A stretch of 64,000 nucleotides of DNA from Ideonella benzenivorans (lineage in GTDB: Bacteria; Pseudomonadota; Gammaproteobacteria; Burkholderiales; Burkholderiaceae_C). The position numbers were made by a program, and so were the translations under genes. Positions 8,821 to 61,351 of this stretch are shown piece after piece; within the stretch, counting starts at the first letter, position 1, and each line of letters opens with the position of its first letter. The DNA is taken from positions 62,001 to 126,000 of the forward strand of contig NZ_JAGWCB010000020.1 of the NCBI RefSeq assembly GCF_020387415.1, in the 5' to 3' direction. Below the pieces are notes generated by a model. That model searched no databases and had not been told where the DNA came from. It worked only from the letters and a program-made list of their open reading frames with translations.

Positions 8821-11001
8821 TCAGGGCGTCGCCGTGGCCAGGCCGAACTGCCAGAGCAGGAAGGCCATGATGTCCGCCTGCTTGGCGTAGGCCTGCTGGG
8901 CCGTGCTGCCGATGCCGTGGCCGGCCTGCTCGTCCAGGCGCAGCAGCACCGGCTTGCCGCTGCTGGAGCTGGCCTGCAACTTGGCGGCGGTCTTGGCGCT
9001 CTCCCAGGTGTCCACCCGCGGGTCGTTCATGCCGTGGATCAGCAGCACCGCCGGATAGGCCACCCCCTTCTCAATGTGCTCATAGGTGCTCATCGCCTGC
9101 AGGGCCTTGAACTCCGCAGGGTCCTGCACCGTGCCGAACTCGGAGATGTTGGTCACCCCGTTGGCCGAGTTCTCGGAGTGCAGGGCGTCCAGCATGCCGA
9201 CGTCGAAGATGGCGGCGGCGAACAGCTCCGGCGCCTCGGTCACCGCGCGACCGACGAAGATGCCGCCCGCGCTGGTGCCCCAGATGCCCAGGCGTTTCGG
9301 GGTGGTGTAGCCCTGGTCGATCAGGTACTTGGCGGCGGCGATGCCGTCCTTCCAGGTGTTGGGCTTGGTGGCCTTGAAGCCCGCCCGGTGCCAGGGGTCG
9401 CCAAAGGCGCCGCCGCCGCGCACATTGGCGATGGCGATCACGCCGCCGCGCTCGAACCAGGCGAAATCGCGCGGTAGGAAGTGCGCCTCCTCGCTCACGC
9501 CGTAGGCGCCGTAGCCGATCAGCAGCGTCGGCGCCTGGCCGTCGCGCTTCAGGTCCTTGCGGTGCAGGATGGCCAGCGGCACCTTCACGCCATCGTGGCT
9601 GGTCACCATCACCTCCTCGGCGACGAGCTCCGGCACGCCCGCGGGGGCCTGCTGGTTCAGCAGGCCGGTGTCGCGGGTGTGGCCCTGGGCATCCACGCGC
9701 AGCAGGCGCGCGGGCTGGGTCCAGGACGAGGTGCTCACCAGCGTGTCACCGGCCAGATGGGCCGGGTTGCCGGTGATCAGCGTGCTGCCGGGCTGCCCCG
9801 GCGCGATGTCGTGCCGGCCCTGGGCGTCGTAGCGCACCGCGCGCAGGCTGAAGCCGCTGCGTTCCTCGGCCAGGATGGCGTCGGGCGTCAGCTCGAAGCC
9901 TTCCAACACCGCGGTGGTGGGTTCCGGCACCAGGGTGCGCGGGCCAGCCAGGGTGTTGTCCTCCAGCGGCAGGGCCATCAGCCGGCCGCGCGGCGCCCCC
10001 CGGTAGGTGCGCACCACCAGTTCGTCACCGCGCAGCGCGGCGTCGGTGATCTGGTCCTCCGGCCCGGCGAGGCGCCGCCAGGCCACCTGGGGCGCCTGCA
10101 GGGCCGCCAGCGGGGCGACGAACAGCTGGCCCTCGGGCGAGGTGGTGTCGGTGGTGCGGGCCACCATGTAGCCGCTGTCCGGGCTGAAGAAGACCTGGCC
10201 CACCTCCAGGCGGTCCAGCTTCAGGGCGGGGGAGACCGTCCGGCCGAACAAGGGCCGGGCCTGATCGGCCTTCTGGCCCACGGTCTGCAGGAAGACGGTG
10301 CTGTCCTGGTAGGTCTCGGTGTCCGGTGCCTGGGCGGGCAGGGCGCGCAGCTGGTTGTAGGCAAAGCGGCGGCTGTCGGGCATCCAGCTCACGCCGTCCT
10401 CCACCACCCGCGGGATGGGCTCGCCCACGGTCTGGCCGCTGCCGATGTCCAGCACGGACAGCGTGGCGTTCTCGGAGCCGCCGGCGGAGACGCCATAGGC
10501 CAGGTAGCGGCCATCCCAGGACGGCATGAAGTAGTTGATGGCCTGCGGCACGCCACCGGCCGCCCGGGCCAGGGCCTCTGGGTCCACCAGCACCCGCTCG
10601 GGCCCCTCCAGGCCCAGGCGCATCACCAGCTGGAACTGGTTCTGGCCCGCCTGGCGCCGCAGGTAGTAGTAGCGCTCGCCGGGCATGCGGATCACGTTGC
10701 GGACGGCATCGCCGGTGCTGCGACTCAGTTGCCCGATGCGCGTGAGCAGCGGCTGGCGCTGGTCGATGCGCGCCAGCGTGTCGCTGGCAAAACGGGCCTG
10801 GGCCCGCATCCAGGCCAGGGTCTCCGGCGAGCGGGTTTCCAGGTTGCGGTACGGGTCGACCCAGGTGACGCCGTGCCGGGTTTCGGTCACCGGGTGGCTG
10901 GGGGCGGGCGGGGGCGTCTGGGCCCGGGTGGGGGCGGCCAGACCGCAGGCCAGGGCGCCGGCCGCGATCAGCGGGCCCAGCGCGAAGGGCTTCAGGGGCA
11001 T
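8821..11001 (-). CDS. Prolyl oligopeptidase family serine peptidase (S9A), secreted
   Basis: A 726-residue protein. I start it at the ATG at 11001 because the peptide then begins with a signal sequence (MPLKPFALGPLIAAGALACG then APTRAQ); an ATG at 11031 would add ten residues. An N-terminal beta-propeller (TRHGVTWVDPYRNLE and repeated strands) is followed by an alpha/beta hydrolase domain. The nucleophile sits in GIWGTSAGGIFVG (family form GGSNGG), with aspartate in MNDPRVDTWESAK and histidine in AGHGIGS. It should cleave short proline-containing peptides in the periplasm. It ends next to the convergent cyclase gene and lies 38 bases downstream of the MFS gene on the same strand. Confidence 0.9.
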   Translation of the reverse strand: MPLKPFALGPLIAAGALACGLAAPTRAQTPPPAPSHPVTETRHGVTWVDPYRNLETRSPETLAWMRAQARFASDTLARIDQRQPLLTRIGQLSRSTGDAVRNVIRMPGERYYYLRRQAGQNQFQLVMRLGLEGPERVLVDPEALARAAGGVPQAINYFMPSWDGRYLAYGVSAGGSENATLSVLDIGSGQTVGEPIPRVVEDGVSWMPDSRRFAYNQLRALPAQAPDTETYQDSTVFLQTVGQKADQARPLFGRTVSPALKLDRLEVGQVFFSPDSGYMVARTTDTTSPEGQLFVAPLAALQAPQVAWRRLAGPEDQITDAALRGDELVVRTYRGAPRGRLMALPLEDNTLAGPRTLVPEPTTAVLEGFELTPDAILAEERSGFSLRAVRYDAQGRHDIAPGQPGSTLITGNPAHLAGDTLVSTSSWTQPARLLRVDAQGHTRDTGLLNQQAPAGVPELVAEEVMVTSHDGVKVPLAILHRKDLKRDGQAPTLLIGYGAYGVSEEAHFLPRDFAWFERGGVIAIANVRGGGAFGDPWHRAGFKATKPNTWKDGIAAAKYLIDQGYTTPKRLGIWGTSAGGIFVGRAVTEAPELFAAAIFDVGMLDALHSENSANGVTNISEFGTVQDPAEFKALQAMSTYEHIEKGVAYPAVLLIHGMNDPRVDTWESAKTAAKLQASSSSGKPVLLRLDEQAGHGIGSTAQQAYAKQADIMAFLLWQFGLATATP

Positions 11002-19395: not shown

Positions 19396-19833
19396 CTACT
19401 CCTCCGGATGACGCCCCCCGCCGCGCCACTCGCCGTCCACCAGCCACAGTTCGAAGAACCGTAGCCACTCGATGGTCCAGGCTACGAAGGTCTCCGCCAG
19501 CAGCATGTCCGGCGACCACTCGTTGTCGGCAGGGAAGTACAGGCAGAGGCGTGAGCTCTTGCCGTCATGCTGGTACACGTGCGGTAGCTTCTTCCCCTCG
19601 GCCAACTCGTGAAGGTTCGGAGACAGAACGAACACCTTGGGCGAGCTGCCGTCCTTCTTGAGCGTGATTCGGCACCTGTATACGCGCGCGCCCGGGAAGG
19701 GAGCGACTTCGAACTCGTACTCGAGTTGGCGACCGCCTGGTATCGAGGTGCGCGCTCCTGGTAGCCCAAGCGCCTGCAGGTGCATCGCCTGCAGCGCAAG
19801 CGACCTGTCCGTGGATGCCCCCCCGTACCTCAT
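19396..19833 (-). CDS. CBASS E2-like (ubiquitin-conjugating fold) protein
   Basis: A 145-residue protein whose start codon shares one base with the CD-NTase stop (TGATG), so translation is coupled. Residues 85-99 (HVYQHDGKSSRLCLY) contain a histidine-rich turn and C97 in the RLCLY context, the place of the catalytic cysteine in prokaryotic E2-like proteins. The C-terminal pattern WTIEWLRFFELWLVDGEWRGGG is shared by E2-type proteins of CBASS operons as I remember them. In type II CBASS an E1-E2 or a lone E2-like protein forms a thioester with the C-terminus of the CD-NTase and conjugates it to a target, raising its activity. No E1 or JAB protease gene is present here, which fits the short type II arrangement. 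Confidence 0.75.
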   Translation of the reverse strand: MRYGGASTDRSLALQAMHLQALGLPGARTSIPGGRQLEYEFEVAPFPGARVYRCRITLKKDGSSPKVFVLSPNLHELAEGKKLPHVYQHDGKSSRLCLYFPADNEWSPDMLLAETFVAWTIEWLRFFELWLVDGEWRGGGRHPEE

Positions 19834-21053
19834 CAGTCGCCGAAGAAGGTGTGCGCGCGCGCAGCAATCGGCAAGACCGAAGCCACGCCAGCTGCTGCCG
19901 GAACGTAGATGCGGGTCATGCCATTGGCGCGCTCGCGTGCCGCACCAGCCGCGTACGAGTCCGTCAAGGCCTTGCTAGCCCGGGTCCCGAAGCTGTTCTG
20001 GACTGAGGTGGCGAGGGCATTTACGCCCGCGCCGTGCGGCAGGTACATCTCGGACAACCTGGCGACGTCTTGGGCGAACCGCGCCCGCCATTGACGGTAG
20101 GCGTCCTGGCGGTCACCCGAGTTCATACGGTCGGCAAGGTTTTCCTTGCGGTGCGTCGGGTTGCAGAGCACCCAGTGCTCGCGGCCATCACGGTATCCCA
20201 CACTGACGTACTCCGGCATCTTCGCGAAGATGGCGAGCAGCAGGTGAACGGGGGATTGGAAGGCGGCGCCTGGCCGCACCAAGTCAGCGTAGGCCAACGC
20301 CACCTGCGTCGTGATGAAGGTGCTGGTCGGCGCGAGCTCCGGGTGCACGGCGAACAGGAGGTTCCTGTGAATCTTGAAGAGCTGGACATAGCGAGCCAGC
20401 GGTTTTGCCCATGCCGATGGACCCGGTAGCGGCAGCACGTCAGCTTTGACAAGTGCTTGGCGCGACTCCATCAACGAGAACCTCGGCAGGAGCGCTGCCG
20501 CGTCGTTGAAGAAGCGGACGTATCCGCGGGGGTTGGTCCCCAGGTGTTCCCCGCGCTCACGGTCCGGAACCAGACCCGCCACATCGCCGTAAGCCTCCAG
20601 ATGGCTCGGCCAGTCGATGACCGGGGTCACGTCGGTATGCATGGCGTTCGCGTACTGGACTTGGGTGCACCGGCGCTTGGGCTCGACCTTGAGGTCGTGC
20701 CGCTCGGCGTACTCCCCCATCGCCTCGTCCAGCTGTTGGAGCAGGTGCACCGCGCTTTGCCGCTGCGCCGACGAGGTCAGCCGGGCGACCAGGTCAACGT
20801 CAAACTCGGCCTTGCCCTCAGGCTTGGTCGTCGTGCCGATGGCCATCGAGCCCTGGGGATGAACCTCGACGGTGAGCCCGCCAAAGAAGGGGTGCTCGCT
20901 CAGGAACTCGCCGATGGACTCGTAGCTGCTCTTCAGCCGCTCGCGCTCGGTATCGCTGAGGGAGTGCGCCTGGGTGATGGCGGCCAGCGCGCCGGATGCG
21001 CCGACGAGCGCATCTTCATTGCTGGGCAGGGGCATGGGAAAGTCGTGATGCAC
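19833..21053 (-). CDS. CBASS CD-NTase (cyclic oligonucleotide synthase)
   Basis: A 406-residue nucleotidyltransferase. I start it at GTG 21053 because GAGGAGG lies 5 bases upstream on the minus strand; an ATG six codons in has no comparable site. The pol-beta core motif is G68-S69 in HPQGSMAIGT, with D85 and D87 in EFDVDLV and a third acidic residue D141 in MHTDVTPVID, so the active site looks intact. On phage infection such enzymes make a cyclic di- or trinucleotide that activates the effector. The C-terminus, AHTFFGD, is the end that an E2 would attach to. A promoter-like element lies about 61 bases upstream (21115-21143). The product nucleotide cannot be predicted from this sequence alone. 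Confidence 0.88.
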   Translation of the reverse strand: MHHDFPMPLPSNEDALVGASGALAAITQAHSLSDTERERLKSSYESIGEFLSEHPFFGGLTVEVHPQGSMAIGTTTKPEGKAEFDVDLVARLTSSAQRQSAVHLLQQLDEAMGEYAERHDLKVEPKRRCTQVQYANAMHTDVTPVIDWPSHLEAYGDVAGLVPDRERGEHLGTNPRGYVRFFNDAAALLPRFSLMESRQALVKADVLPLPGPSAWAKPLARYVQLFKIHRNLLFAVHPELAPTSTFITTQVALAYADLVRPGAAFQSPVHLLLAIFAKMPEYVSVGYRDGREHWVLCNPTHRKENLADRMNSGDRQDAYRQWRARFAQDVARLSEMYLPHGAGVNALATSVQNSFGTRASKALTDSYAAGAARERANGMTRIYVPAAAGVASVLPIAARAHTFFGD

Positions 21054-21114
21054 GTTAACCTCCTCTTCTAGCTCGGGGTTGGGCGTCACGCTCGACTTCC
21101 GGGCGCCCTGGGTA

Positions 21115-21143
21115 GTAAGACTCTCGAGCCGTCGAAGTTGGAC
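21115..21143 (-). promoter_or_regulatory. Island promoter-like element C (upstream of CD-NTase)
   Basis: Read on the minus strand this is GTCC, then 13 bases, then CGAGAGTCTTAC at 21126-21115. The identical 12-mer occurs at 22394-22383 (minus) and 22455-22466 (plus), each time pointing at the next gene and each time with GTCC 17 or 18 bases before it. Here it lies wholly inside the 110-base gap between the HNH-SAVED and CD-NTase genes, 61 bases before the CD-NTase start. It may be a promoter or an operator. Confidence 0.6.
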
Positions 21144-21163
21144 ATAGTCGTGGCGGCGTCGGG

Positions 21164-22291
21164 CTACTTCAGGCAGAGGGCATGAACCCAGGTCGGGGCC
21201 TGCCGGTCCCAGACGTGGACCTCTTCGAGCGTCTTTGGCAGGAGCAGCCTTCCCAGCTCGACGCTTGCGCACAGTGGCGTGGCCGGGAAGATGTGCACGA
21301 CGCGAGCGCCGGCCGCGGTCAGAGCCACGAAGAACTCGTTGCAGCGAGCGCGAAACTCCTGAAGATGGGCCTGGGTCCGAATGATTCCCCGATTGGGCAT
21401 AGCGGCCTCGAACCGCAGAACCGGCGCGCCGTCTGGTGGCAGCACCCCCGTCACCCGGCTCGACACACCTACCTCGACGGCAACGACACGCGGAAGTTGC
21501 GTCGGTACGGCAAACTGCCAGTTGGGCGCCGCGACATTTGTGCGTTTGTCCCAAAGCCAGCGCTCAACCGGCAGGTCCAGCACGCTGGCGTCCATCTTGT
21601 CGCCAAGCAACGCCCCGAGCTTCATGAGCAGGGGAATCGGTGCGAACGCGGCAATGGTCAGGTGGGATGGAGTGTGCCGAGCAGTCAGTTCTGGTCGAAG
21701 CCGCGTCTCGAAGATGCTCGTGAGCGTCGCCTCTGCCCGTGCCCAGAAGTCAGGTGACCCGTCTGTGATGTCGAAGTCGCTCCGGTCGATGTGAACATGC
21801 CTCCCGGACGGGAATCGCTTGTACTTCGAGTTTTCGATGATGGCGTGGTTGATGTCGCGGATGTCGATGACTGGCGTGTGGCTCGCAATCGGGAACGTCA
21901 TCAGCACCGGCAGTGTCTGCTTGACGCCCGTGGACGAATAAATGAGCTCCACGCGAGCCTCGTGTTCCCGTTTCATCGCCAGCAAGTCAGCCTCGCTGTA
22001 CGCATTGGCCTTACCGTGACGGTCGATGCGCTTGTGGCACCCGTAGCACATGAGCATCAGGTTTCGCTCGTCTTGCGCGAGCAGCTTCGAGCGAACCAAG
22101 TCGCCGCGCGGCGCGTCGGGGCTATCGCCCACGATGTGTGCGAACTCGCCGACGTACGCAGTGCGCTCCGTAAGGAAGTCCCGCGAGACCGGTTCGTTGC
22201 AGCCGCGGAACTCGCACCGCCCAGCGGCGGCAATCCAGAGGCTGTGCCGAACCGGCAGCGGGATAGGCAGTCGTTTGTGGTTCGTGGCCAT
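21164..22291 (-). CDS. CBASS effector, HNH endonuclease-SAVED fusion (Cap5-like)
   Basis: A 375-residue protein. Residues 1-95 are an HNH nuclease: zinc-type cysteines C26 and C31 (GRCEFRGCN), H52 in GEFAHIVG, N77, then C82, C85 and H86 in LMLMCYGCHKRID. After a linker, residues ~180-375 match a SAVED domain, the receptor for cyclic oligonucleotides (ATLTSIFETRLRPELTA, FAPIPLLMKLGALLGDK, VHIFPATPLCASVELGRLLLP). Binding of the CD-NTase product should drive oligomerisation and unspecific DNA cutting, killing the infected cell. It is the first gene of the minus-strand CBASS block and is divergent from the sigma-like module. No strong ribosome site is visible upstream. Confidence 0.88.
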   Translation of the reverse strand: MATNHKRLPIPLPVRHSLWIAAAGRCEFRGCNEPVSRDFLTERTAYVGEFAHIVGDSPDAPRGDLVRSKLLAQDERNLMLMCYGCHKRIDRHGKANAYSEADLLAMKREHEARVELIYSSTGVKQTLPVLMTFPIASHTPVIDIRDINHAIIENSKYKRFPSGRHVHIDRSDFDITDGSPDFWARAEATLTSIFETRLRPELTARHTPSHLTIAAFAPIPLLMKLGALLGDKMDASVLDLPVERWLWDKRTNVAAPNWQFAVPTQLPRVVAVEVGVSSRVTGVLPPDGAPVLRFEAAMPNRGIIRTQAHLQEFRARCNEFFVALTAAGARVVHIFPATPLCASVELGRLLLPKTLEEVHVWDRQAPTWVHALCLK

Positions 22292-22382
22292 AGGGGTCGT
22301 GGTCCGCTTTCGAGTTGTGGTTTGGCGCTGGTCAAGCGCGCCACCAGACCACTGACGAACCGGTGGCTGGGCGGTACAGTCA

Positions 22383-22411
22383 GTAAGACTCTCGGGAACG
22401 AGCGCCTGGAC
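22383..22411 (-). promoter_or_regulatory. Island promoter-like element A (upstream of HNH-SAVED)
   Basis: On the minus strand GTCC at 22411-22408 is followed after 13 bases by CGAGAGTCTTAC (22394-22383). The element lies 91 bases before the effector start and stands back to back with element B, with a 25-base AT-rich spacer (22412-22436) between the two GTCC blocks. This is the geometry of divergent promoters. Confidence 0.6.
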
Positions 22412-22436
22412 GCGTACAAAGAAATAAATTTCGAGC

Positions 22437-22466
22437 GTCCGACTGACTACACGCCGAGAGTCTTAC
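22437..22466 (+). promoter_or_regulatory. Island promoter-like element B (upstream of the sigma-like gene)
   Basis: GTCC at 22437-22440 is followed after 14 bases by CGAGAGTCTTAC (22455-22466). The ATG of the sigma-like gene is only 17 bases downstream, with GAGGAGGAAGG between. If the 12-mer is a -10 region, the leader would be about a dozen bases, just long enough to hold the GGAAGG ribosome site at 22472. Confidence 0.6.
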
Positions 22467-22483
22467 GAGGAGGAAGGCAAGCA

Positions 22484-23065
22484 ATGCGGACAAGGTCCGA
22501 CAAACACGAGTACCTTAGTGGCGCAGAGGTGGAGGCAGCGTTGAACGCTATGCCTCCCGCCGACTGGGAGCGGGCGAAGAGCCTGGCTCGCGAGCGCGCG
22601 GTCGGCCTGACTGAGATGTCGAGCGACGACCTACTGCACAAGGTCGTCGAGAAACTGCTTGGGGAAGACCGAGGGTGGCGACGCGGCATGTCGGCGCTCG
22701 TCACGCTGGCCACGGCTATGGATGGCGTGGCCTTCAACGAGCGGAAGAAGGTCAAGAACGCACCAATCGACAGTAGACGGCAGACCACAACGCTGGACGA
22801 GGCAGCGGAAGACGACGAACCGCATCTCGATTACGCTGTCGAACTGAACACTCCCGAGGACTACGCTGCGGCGCAAGAACTCTTCGATGCACTCGAGGAA
22901 CTCGTGGCCGGTGACCAAGAGCTCGAGGACCTGCTCACGGTACGCATGGAGGGTCTCAGCGGACCTAAAGCTGCTGCGGCTTTGGGCCTCGACCAGAAGC
23001 AGTTCGACGCGCTGCGCAAGAAGCTGGAACGCAAGCTTGCTTCCCTTCAACAAAAGGGGCAATGA
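22484..23065 (+). CDS. Sigma-70-like (ECF-type) regulator
   Basis: A 193-residue protein with a strong ribosome site (GAGGAGGAAGG). Residues ~45-100 resemble sigma region 2 (DDLLHKVVEKLLGEDRGWRRGMSALVTLATAMDGVAFNERKK). Residues ~135-190 form a region-4 helix-turn-helix (LEDLLTVRMEGLSGPKAAAALGLDQKQFDALRKKLERKL). It could direct RNA polymerase to the three island elements, including its own promoter, or act as an ordinary DNA-binding regulator. It overlaps the next gene by ATGA and is the first of three coupled genes. Its GC is below that of the chromosome around it. Confidence 0.72.
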   Translation: MRTRSDKHEYLSGAEVEAALNAMPPADWERAKSLARERAVGLTEMSSDDLLHKVVEKLLGEDRGWRRGMSALVTLATAMDGVAFNERKKVKNAPIDSRRQTTTLDEAAEDDEPHLDYAVELNTPEDYAAAQELFDALEELVAGDQELEDLLTVRMEGLSGPKAAAALGLDQKQFDALRKKLERKLASLQQKGQ

Positions 23066-23469
23066 CCATGGGACAAAGTTCAAACAAGCATCCGACCGCG
23101 GCCTTTCTAGAGGCACAGTTCCATGACTTGGTGGCGACGCCTGATTCGGAAATCCTGGCTGGAACGACGGAAGACGAGGCGCGTGCATTCGGCCTTGCGT
23201 TGGTGCGCTCCGCGAAGGCGGCCGTCGCAAAGCGCAAGTTTGCTGCTGCCAAAGCAGCGCTCGCCCGCGGCGCTGAAGCTGGGGGAGCCGCTAAGCCGGT
23301 ACTCGTTTCGGTCGCCGAAGCGCGTGCGTTCATCGCTGCAGCTGCGAACGACGTTAGGTTCACGCTTGCTGCTCGCGAGCTTGATGAGATGTCCGATGAG
23401 GACATCCTGCGTCTGTACGCAACCATGCAGCAGGTTCTGGCGGACGCGAAAGGCGAGAGCGAAAAGTGA
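23062..23469 (+). CDS. Small alanine-rich helical protein of the sigma/ImmA module
   Basis: A 135-residue protein of unknown family. It is almost entirely helical by composition, rich in alanine, with a lysine-rich middle (KAAVAKRKFAAAKAALARG) and an acidic tail (ELDEMSDEDILRLYATMQQVLADAKGESEK). There is no membrane segment or cysteine cluster. The start at 23062 overlaps the sigma-like stop (ATGA); ATG 23068 is an alternative. Its place between a sigma-like factor and a protease makes it a candidate anti-sigma or adaptor that the protease destroys. That is inference from position only. Confidence 0.75.
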   Translation: MTMGQSSNKHPTAAFLEAQFHDLVATPDSEILAGTTEDEARAFGLALVRSAKAAVAKRKFAAAKAALARGAEAGGAAKPVLVSVAEARAFIAAAANDVRFTLAARELDEMSDEDILRLYATMQQVLADAKGESEK

Positions 23470-24302
23470 CCGAACCCGGGGAACTGGCTGAGGCCCTGGT
23501 CGAGGAGTGCGGTATCTCTGCGCCAGGGGAACTGGACGTGGAGGCGCTTGCGCTCATGCACGGTATGCGTGTACAGCGAGCGGAGTTGGACGGATGCGCG
23601 GCGACCCTGGTTGGGTACGGTGATAGTGCCATCGCCACGATTAGGCCTGCGCCGGCCGCGGGTCGAGACCGCTTCTCAATCGGTCACGAGTTTGGACATT
23701 GGATGCTGCACCGCGGGCAATCATTCCGTTGCCGAGCGGATGGCATGAATCAAAACCTGTCCTCTAACCGCCCCCTTGAGCGTGAGGCTGACACGTTCGC
23801 GGCCCACTTGCTCATGCCGCGTTCCCTGTTCAACCCGTGCGTCGCGTCACTCGGTCGGCCGGGCTTCCGACAGCTTGATGAGCTGCGTAAGGAGTTCGAC
23901 ACGAGCCTGATGGCCACCACGTTGCGGCTGGCAGGCATCAACACTCTCCCAGTTGTCGTAGCTTGCTTTGGCAAGAACGGGCGACGCTGGAAGATTTCGG
24001 CGCAGGACGTGCCAAAGCGATGGTGGCTGTGCGACGAGGTCGACCCCGACTCGTTCGCGTACGACGTGCTCTTCCAGGGCAAGACCACTGGTCAGGGGAA
24101 GCAACCTGCGGATACGTGGTTCACTAACGAGGACGCCGGTAGATTTGAGGTAACGGAGCACGCTGTACGCACTCGCAACGACGACGTGCTCGTGCTCATC
24201 TACCTAGAGGGCGAGGCGGCCTTTCACTCCAGGTTCGACCCGACTGTCGGCGCTCGCAAGTACACCGAGTACGGGTCGTATGTGCCTTCCCGCCGGAAGT
24301 GA
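23466..24302 (+). CDS. ImmA/IrrE-type zinc metalloprotease
   Basis: A 278-residue protein with a GTG start that overlaps the previous stop (GTGA). The zinc site is H74-E-F-G-H78 in SIGHEFGHWMLH, and the third ligand lies in EREADTFAAHLLMP about 30 residues later, both standard for the ImmA/IrrE family. Such proteases cleave repressors or anti-activators after DNA damage or phage entry; the CBASS-linked CapP protease cuts the repressor CapH. The last 100 residues are an unrecognised domain that could sense a signal. It closes the operon; no terminator is obvious after it. Confidence 0.88.
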   Translation: MTEPGELAEALVEECGISAPGELDVEALALMHGMRVQRAELDGCAATLVGYGDSAIATIRPAPAAGRDRFSIGHEFGHWMLHRGQSFRCRADGMNQNLSSNRPLEREADTFAAHLLMPRSLFNPCVASLGRPGFRQLDELRKEFDTSLMATTLRLAGINTLPVVVACFGKNGRRWKISAQDVPKRWWLCDEVDPDSFAYDVLFQGKTTGQGKQPADTWFTNEDAGRFEVTEHAVRTRNDDVLVLIYLEGEAAFHSRFDPTVGARKYTEYGSYVPSRRK

Positions 24303-61033: not shown

Positions 61034-61351
61034 ATGGACAAGGTACTCGTCAAGACCACTCTGGACGGCCGCGCCGTCGAGGTCATCAACGGCTGGGTCT
61101 GTCTCGCGGGTCAGCCGGAGACCGACGAGGTCGTCGTGCTGGAGGAGCACCCCAACCGCCAGGCCATCCTGAAGGCGGTGCCCAACGCCACGCACATGGC
61201 CGGGCGGTTGCCGCTGACGATGCCGGAGGCCTCGGTGGCCCAGGCCGCCCTGCGTCGCCACCATGACCGTTTCGACGGCTCGGCGCTGGCGGTGTCCGAG
61301 CGCATGCGCCAGGCGGCCTGGAAGAAGGTGTTCGCCGAAGGCGCCGAGTGA
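61034..61351 (+). CDS. Small unknown protein downstream of nifK
   Basis: A 105-residue soluble protein: DKVLVKTTLDGRAVEVINGWVCLAGQPETDEVVVLEEHPNRQAILKAVPNATHMAGRLPLTMPEA, then RMRQAAWKKVFAEGAE. It occupies the place of nifT or nifY in other diazotrophs, but the sequence does not resemble NifT (shorter, with a YVPKKDLEE motif) or NifY. It may belong to a nif-linked family that I do not recognise. Expression is expected from the nifH promoter. Confidence 0.82.
   Translation: MDKVLVKTTLDGRAVEVINGWVCLAGQPETDEVVVLEEHPNRQAILKAVPNATHMAGRLPLTMPEASVAQAALRRHHDRFDGSALAVSERMRQAAWKKVFAEGAE

Follow-up and report, generated by a model that had tools for sequence, protein, structure and literature searches.

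We have found that three exact copies of a 12-bp element, CGAGAGTCTTAC, stand before genes of a defence island in a 64-kb stretch of the Ideonella benzenivorans genome (contig NZ_JAGWCB010000020.1, positions 62,001 to 126,000). This whole stretch is called the window below, and "genome" refers to the 4.49-Mb genome that holds it. The island encodes a cyclic oligonucleotide-based antiphage signaling system (CBASS) beside a sigma-like protein (P0003), a small helical protein (P0004) and a CapP-type zinc metallopeptidase (P0005). With a probability of roughly 70%, we interpret the element as the -10 half of a promoter read by the sigma-like protein, in an island switched by an anti-sigma factor and release through CapP. 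Comparison between loci shows the promoter pattern, the pairing and co-variation of the promoters, and a conserved three-gene module with an extracytoplasmic function (ECF)-like gene first and a CapP gene third.

The copies occur at 21126-21115 (minus strand), 22394-22383 (minus strand) and 22455-22466 (plus strand), and each is directed at the next gene, encoding the CD-NTase (start 21059), the HNH-SAVED effector (22291) and the sigma-like protein (22484). GTCC starts 17, 17 and 18 bases before these copies, respectively, and an AT-rich stretch (22415-22431) lies inside the spacer of the two divergent copies. An earlier note on this DNA had described just such an arrangement, with three copies directed at these genes, GTCC 17 or 18 bases upstream of each and an AT-rich spacer between back-to-back copies, and the coordinates bear it out on every point. 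The 12-mer has no other exact copy in the genome, and its reversed control has none at all. When up to two mismatches were allowed, the window yielded the same three sites and no others; at least three sites at two mismatches were found in 21 of 100 shuffles, and exactness alone therefore counts. The looser pattern GTCC-N18/19-GTCNTAC matched the genome five times, three of these being the island sites, whereas its reversed control matched 26 times; composition therefore does not make this looser pattern rare. Some 12-mer occurred as a triple within 1.5 kb in 10 of 100 window shuffles, and the real window has three other such 12-mers. The bare repeat is just moderately unlikely, and its conservation is the convincing part.

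On sequence, a putative bipartite promoter, GTCC-N18/19-GTCTTAC, can be made out, with GTCC on its -35 side and the 12-mer as its downstream half, on the -10 side. The putative promoter of the sigma-like gene (22437..22466, plus strand) has its -35 at 22437-22440 and, after 19 nucleotides, its -10 at 22460-22466; homologous sites are found in the related loci L007 and L008 and in the wider family, and transcription is predicted to start at about 22471-22474. Divergent from it is the putative promoter of the SAVED gene (22383..22411, minus strand), with GTCC at 22411-22408, 18 nucleotides and GTCTTAC at 22389-22383, and with homologous sites in the same two loci. The third, a putative internal promoter before the CD-NTase gene (21115..21143, minus strand), has GTCC at 21143-21140, 18 nucleotides and GTCTTAC at 21121-21115, and is kept in L008 at 6643. 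The end of the element precedes the start codon by 17 nucleotides for the sigma gene, 55 for the CD-NTase gene and 91 for the SAVED gene.

A search of 300 Burkholderiales genomes, the window's own included, returned one other relative of P0003. This locus, L007, comes from another family than the window's, and its protein is 47-49% identical to P0003; all three genes of the window's module recur there, opposite what looks by eye like a ubiquitin-like operon, and two divergent sites are retained, CAGGAGTCATAC and GGGGAGTCCTAC, both preceded by GTCC at the distance found in the window. The sole locus from a P0003 search of genome contigs, L008, is a near-copy of the island (sigma-like protein 96% identical) that keeps the three element sites with substitutions. 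The CapP frame of L008 stops early (~9240-9377) in unrelated, insertion-like sequence, while the sigma gene, the small gene and the promoters remain.

CapP matches were present in 72 plasmid records, of which 21 were examined. The regions come from alpha-, beta- and gammaproteobacteria, and 19 of the 21 carry a module consisting, in order, of the sigma-like gene, a gene for a helical protein of ~135 amino acids and the CapP metallopeptidase gene; the other two (L013, L014) have a helix-turn-helix (HTH) CapH in place of the sigma-like module. Since P0005 served as the query, this sample is biased towards its CapP branch. As plasmid queries, P0003 returned two Planctomycetes records and the small protein two records only. 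The module is usually divergent from CBASS genes (L010, L018, L027, L029), from ubiquitin-like/ThiF genes (by annotation in L011, L016, L019, L021 and L025; by eye in L020), or from genes of no assigned type, including small unannotated ones (L009, L017, L022, L023).

When the intergenic regions were read by eye, most loci had GTCC, 18 or 19 nucleotides and G[CT][AC]T.. on each divergent side, usually as TGTCCG..GCATAG. A weight matrix, TGTCCG-N17/18-GCATAG, was trained on 35 sites from 18 loci that were picked by eye; the near-copy L008, L016 and L020 with a variant -35, and L026, in which no site was seen, were left out. It was then applied to loci found later through the sigma profile or, for L031, through CapP, with 200 shuffles each (p floor 0.005); L030, which has no sequence upstream of its sigma gene, was excluded. 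Both divergent sites reached p <= 0.01 in eight of the nine later CapP modules (L094, L098, L108, L109, L110, L111, L113, L161). In the ninth, L031, the matrix missed both sides (p 0.14, 0.27), and a variant site, TGTCGGAA..GCAAC, occurs in this locus as an inverted pair. Five hits resembling conventional ECF sigma factors (L107, L114-L117) had no promoter site (lowest p 0.040), and two HTH-CapH loci scored 2.8-6.8. The matrix was also applied to 26 of 60 viral CapP-like loci over up to 1500 nucleotides, and these scores carry no shuffle test: the score of 19.1 in L030 falls on a site within its sigma frame, L031 scored 8.6, and the best of the other 24 were 11.5 and 11.1. The full matrix scores other sites in the window higher than the island promoters, up to 19.7 at 61292, so that by itself it is no finder of such promoters.

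Across the family, the sites have a direction and no palindromic symmetry, and their spacing is sigma-like; over 17 loci, the median distance from the end of the site to the annotated start of the sigma gene is 19 nucleotides. As far as sequence goes, the sites have the form of the autoregulated two-part promoters of ECF sigma factors. The exact 12-mer was rejected as a general signal of the family, whose -10 is mostly of the GCATAG or GCCTAA type, and the window -10 is a divergent type within it. The earlier note's expectation that related islands would share the pattern thus holds for the bipartite site on both sides of the module, but not for the 12-mer itself.

Further evidence comes from how well the paired promoters of each locus agree. 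Pairs from 27 loci were compared, 19 of them picked by eye, with L008, L026 and L161 left out. Spacing was equal in 22 of the 27 pairs (13.4 expected with shuffled partners, p = 0.001), and -10 positions 2-3 were equal in 25 (12.7 expected); in the eight later pairs alone, 45 of 56 -10 positions agreed (35.5 expected, p = 0.0005). Agreement in spacing and -10 type fits a single local reader at each locus, which, to judge from these sequences, is most likely the locally encoded sigma-like protein, although co-variation by itself cannot tell a sigma factor from a repressor. The suggestion that a small regulon is read by the local sigma-like protein, or by a repressor, is supported by this comparison together with the later CapP modules.

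The proposed reader, P0003 (193 amino acids; 22484..23065, plus strand), belongs to a family whose profile matches SigH in the PDB (E 4e-6, over 37-181); through this match, the ECF layout of sigma2 and sigma4 with a linker and no sigma3 is found at the family level. At E <= 0.1, TIGR02937 (sigma70-ECF) matches 16 of the 21 sigma-like sequences and Pfam Sigma70_r2 matches eight. The structure model of P0003 has helices at 13-91 and 124-192, joined by a low-confidence linker (93-120), and its top Foldseek matches are sigma factors, with ECF ones from rank 2; these matches are consistent with a sigma factor and are no proof of one. The protein is ECF-like, with putative sigma activity.

The third gene encodes P0005 (278 amino acids; 23466..24302, plus strand), which matches PADLOC capP at 5e-61 and Pfam PF06114 (Peptidase_M78) at 1.9e-12, above the cut-off, and has the HExxH motif of a zinc peptidase. 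All 21 peptidases match PADLOC CapP, and their profile matches the PDB CapP structure 7t5t at 8e-22. In a tree of 50 peptidases, one branch (100/99) splits 30 sigma-adjacent sequences from 20 taken as CapH-type, and one exchange of partner is therefore enough on this sample. The CapH-type members were chosen by a match to the capH model and not by inspection one by one; L135 and L142 are uncertain members, and L014 and L138 have no row in the tree.

Between these genes lies that of P0004 (133 amino acids; 23068..23469, plus strand), the proposed anti-sigma factor and CapP substrate, which carries A-A-R at residues 101-103. The motif A-x-R is present in 21 of 21 small proteins, and A-[AF]-R in all ten later CapP modules; it is absent from the three look-alikes encoded after CapP-less sigma genes (L095, L096, L097, of which L095 resembles L097). 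By eye, the second frames of the CapP-less loci L092, L093, L100, L103, L105 and L112 were not counted as the small protein; L112 has an 85-amino-acid frame that looks like the first half of the small protein and lacks the motif. A-x-R may be the site at which CapP recognizes or cuts the small protein. For the PprI-DdrO pair, a passage of PMC10904395 reports that an arginine of the cleavage-site loop matters for interaction. In nine aligned CapH sequences, F[FY]R stands in eight where the small protein has A-[AFH]-R, a placement made by eye that profile comparison does not support; frames for this alignment were found for part of 20 capH loci, with L135 and L142 left out. Pfam gives P0004 no HTH match of the kind that marks the CapH N-terminus, PADLOC capH matches it weakly (E 7e-4), and the same model matches 13 of the 21 small proteins at E <= 1, with a best value of 5.8e-8. 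By inspection, the small protein is not membrane-bound.

Two of the CapP-less loci have a further gene. In L153 (genome G851; the L096 locus) and L158 (genome G826; the L097 locus), the gene of the CapP-less sigma relative is followed by that of a small protein lacking A-x-R. Beyond it lies a gene for a protein of 448-491 amino acids that matches no family above cut-off and is perhaps a different activator in the place of CapP. On the divergent side, both loci have Multi_ubiq, Prok-E2_E and ThiF genes, with DUF6527 also in L153, and the promoter reaches p <= 0.01 on both sides in L096 and on one side in L097. Near the CapP-less sigma relatives L154 and L156 are DNA_pol_B_exo2-type exonuclease genes, of which that in L156 falls slightly short of the Pfam cut-off; a similar-looking gene was seen by eye in L155.

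We hypothesize that the sigma-like protein encoded at 22484 recognizes the promoter made up of GTCC, 18-19 nucleotides and GTCTTAC. In the resting cell, P0004 would bind and hold the sigma factor; CapP would cleave the small protein, and the freed sigma factor would transcribe its own operon, giving positive feedback, and would act at two further promoters on the HNH-SAVED effector gene and the CD-NTase/E2 genes. The sigma activity, the anti-sigma role, the cleavage and its trigger are what we infer from the loci. If this is true, defence operons would depend on a controller of their own, with positive feedback and a threshold. The promoter signature would offer a way to find new defence cargo, as several loci drive unannotated genes, and matched sigma-promoter pairs with visible co-variation would be on offer. 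On balance, it is also probable that the module represents an activator-type family of defence controllers, in which a sigma factor, a cleavable anti-sigma factor and CapP would form a portable, self-amplifying switch for CBASS, ubiquitin-like and unassigned immune operons. Its paired promoters would be of matched specificity, keeping the genes off without their private sigma factor and letting expression rise sharply on damage.

A number of results weigh against this interpretation. P0003 alone falls under the TIGR02937 cut-off (17.2 versus 42.9 bits), and it reads DLLHK where the family consensus of the region-2 motif is DLxQEA, which calls for caution on core polymerase binding and transcription. 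Its model, built from four sequences, is weak (mean pLDDT 69, pTM 0.41), and its Foldseek matches run from E 0.005 upward, with none at E <= 0.001 and TM-scores near 0.3. The model of the small protein (pLDDT 62) has no credible fold match, hhalign and profile tests of the small protein against HTH CapH gave no support for homology, and the PADLOC capH model is broad: at E <= 1e-6 it matches 190 of 249 genomes and also 13 of 14 control genomes. In the eight later pairs alone, neither spacing (p 0.18) nor -10 positions 2-3 (p 0.13) is significant. The later loci share ancestry with the training loci, L108 being close to L022 in the tree, for example, and L026 has no promoter site by eye. With the window and L007 withheld from training, the matrix scored highest on the element for two window promoters, short of significance (p 0.17 and 0.18), and at another place for the third (p 0.080); what ties the window to the family is therefore L007, L008 and the common geometry. 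Finally, among 21 sigma-profile hits without CapP nearby, four have the promoter on both sides, eight on one side and nine, including L107 and L114-L117, on neither, so that the sigma-promoter pair can do without CapP. Here "without CapP" means that no HExxH-type frame within about 1.5 kb was judged CapP-like; the HELAH frame of L104 was judged unrelated.

The sigma-promoter pairs without CapP nearby, and the failure of the small protein to match any known anti-sigma factor in sequence or fold, would also suit a sigma-driven switch in which the partners have other roles, for example with the small protein as co-activator or the sigma factor itself as the target of CapP. Such an arrangement is unlikely, though to be taken seriously, as gene order places the small protein where CapH stands, and A-x-R is present with CapP and absent from the CapP-less look-alikes. 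The element could instead be an operator, with the small protein as its local repressor or with the sigma-like protein in that role as a plain DNA-binding protein; CapP would then relieve repression, and the housekeeping sigma factor would transcribe. According to a passage of PMC13373217, CapP normally cleaves a repressor; the weak capH matches of the small proteins and the altered region-2 motif of P0003 point the same way, and the two-site co-variation would fit a local repressor as well. However, the site has two parts, reads in one direction towards its gene, is no palindrome and has sigma-like spacing; the small protein has neither a Pfam HTH match nor a model with a credible match, and the sigma-like family matches ECF sigma factors, which leaves a repressor with a slim chance.

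Two further explanations are very improbable. The 12-mer triples of the shuffles and the other clustered 12-mers of the window would allow the element to be a chance repeat or a remnant of a mobile element, with no regulatory role, but this was already disfavoured by the conservation of the element and its partner box in L007 and L008 and by the promoter pairs in later loci. Equally remote is an action in RNA, as a leader or antitermination site, which the short distance to the start codons, above all that of the sigma gene, might suggest; the GTCC box at a fixed distance makes a promoter, from which a start just downstream would leave the element untranscribed, and the distances to the cargo genes vary. 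The sigma-read promoter remains our preferred explanation.

CapH+CapP were reportedly described by Lau et al. (2022) as controllers of CBASS and other immune operons. As that pair is described in PMC13373217, our module resembles it in its CapP-family peptidase, in the small partner gene just upstream and in its place beside CBASS or ubiquitin-like operons. It differs in having a sigma-like protein and a protein without a recognized HTH in place of the HTH repressor CapH, in its paired sigma-type promoters, and in the separate side of the tree on which its CapP falls. The earlier note had called the switch distinct from CapH repressor control; this is right in that the sigma-like and small proteins appear to replace CapH, but the CapP protease is retained. 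Because no HTH repressor was found, we class the system as a new variant of CapP-type control and not as a member of CapH+CapP. ECF (group 4) sigma factors have co-encoded anti-sigma factors, regulated proteolysis and a -35 of the GGAAC type. The module shares with them the sigma2-linker-sigma4 layout, autoregulated two-part promoters and a sigma gene followed by a small gene, whereas its -35 is TGTCCG, its small protein is by inspection not membrane-bound, CapP is in the operon and the putative target is an adjacent immune operon.

In passages of PMC10904395, PprI(IrrE)-DdrO of Deinococcus likewise has a peptidase of the same family, activated by single-stranded DNA, and an arginine in the cleavage-site loop; its substrate is a repressor and not a sigma partner. 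Three damage-responsive controllers appear in passages of PMC13373217, namely CapW/BrxR, CapH+CapP and CapK+CapS, and each acts through a repressor there. CapK+CapS (a kinase/STAS repressor) and CapW/BrxR (a repressor that binds single-stranded DNA) are, like the module, encoded beside diverse immune operons and, in that account, neither has a sigma factor. CapH/CapP are also mentioned in a passage of PMC12255303, and the sigma-like domain of BrxL in a passage of PMC12839542 is a separate matter. No sigma-type defence controller was present among the matches listed in the open-licence literature. Lifting of a repressor is common to the three named systems in these passages; the sigma switch described here would be of activator type.

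The remaining island genes lie on the minus strand. They encode the HNH-SAVED CBASS effector P0002 (375 amino acids; 21164..22291) and the CD-NTase P0001 (408 amino acids, GTG start; 19833..21059), both assigned by Pfam and PADLOC, and the E2-like protein P0007 (145 amino acids; 19396..19833), assigned by PADLOC. SMODS and SAVED were found above the Pfam cut-off and HNH below it, and the PADLOC cyclase, effector and E2 models match, as is expected of CBASS. P0006 (18584..19297), the last island gene on its strand, is an uncertain member with no family match in Pfam, PADLOC or NCBIfam. None of the seven island proteins has a Pfam match to WYL, GHKL or STAS, the domains that would mark CapW/BrxR (a WYL repressor) or CapK+CapS (a GHKL kinase with a STAS-wHTH repressor).

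A possible distant version of the module in another phylum was seen on the Planctomycetes plasmid CP036297.1 (L006, 4628-9204), where a ThiF gene comes after genes for a sigma-like protein, a 190-amino-acid protein and a 320-amino-acid protein that has an HExxH-like motif; owing to poor alignment, L006 was excluded from the alignments and motif counts. Divergent cargo encoding a protein of ~92 amino acids recurs in L017 (3041-3319), L022 (3071-3349), L023 (3073-3351) and L159 (6581-6859), adjoining a DUF2188 gene in L022 and L023, and these ~92-amino-acid proteins are candidate unannotated defence genes.
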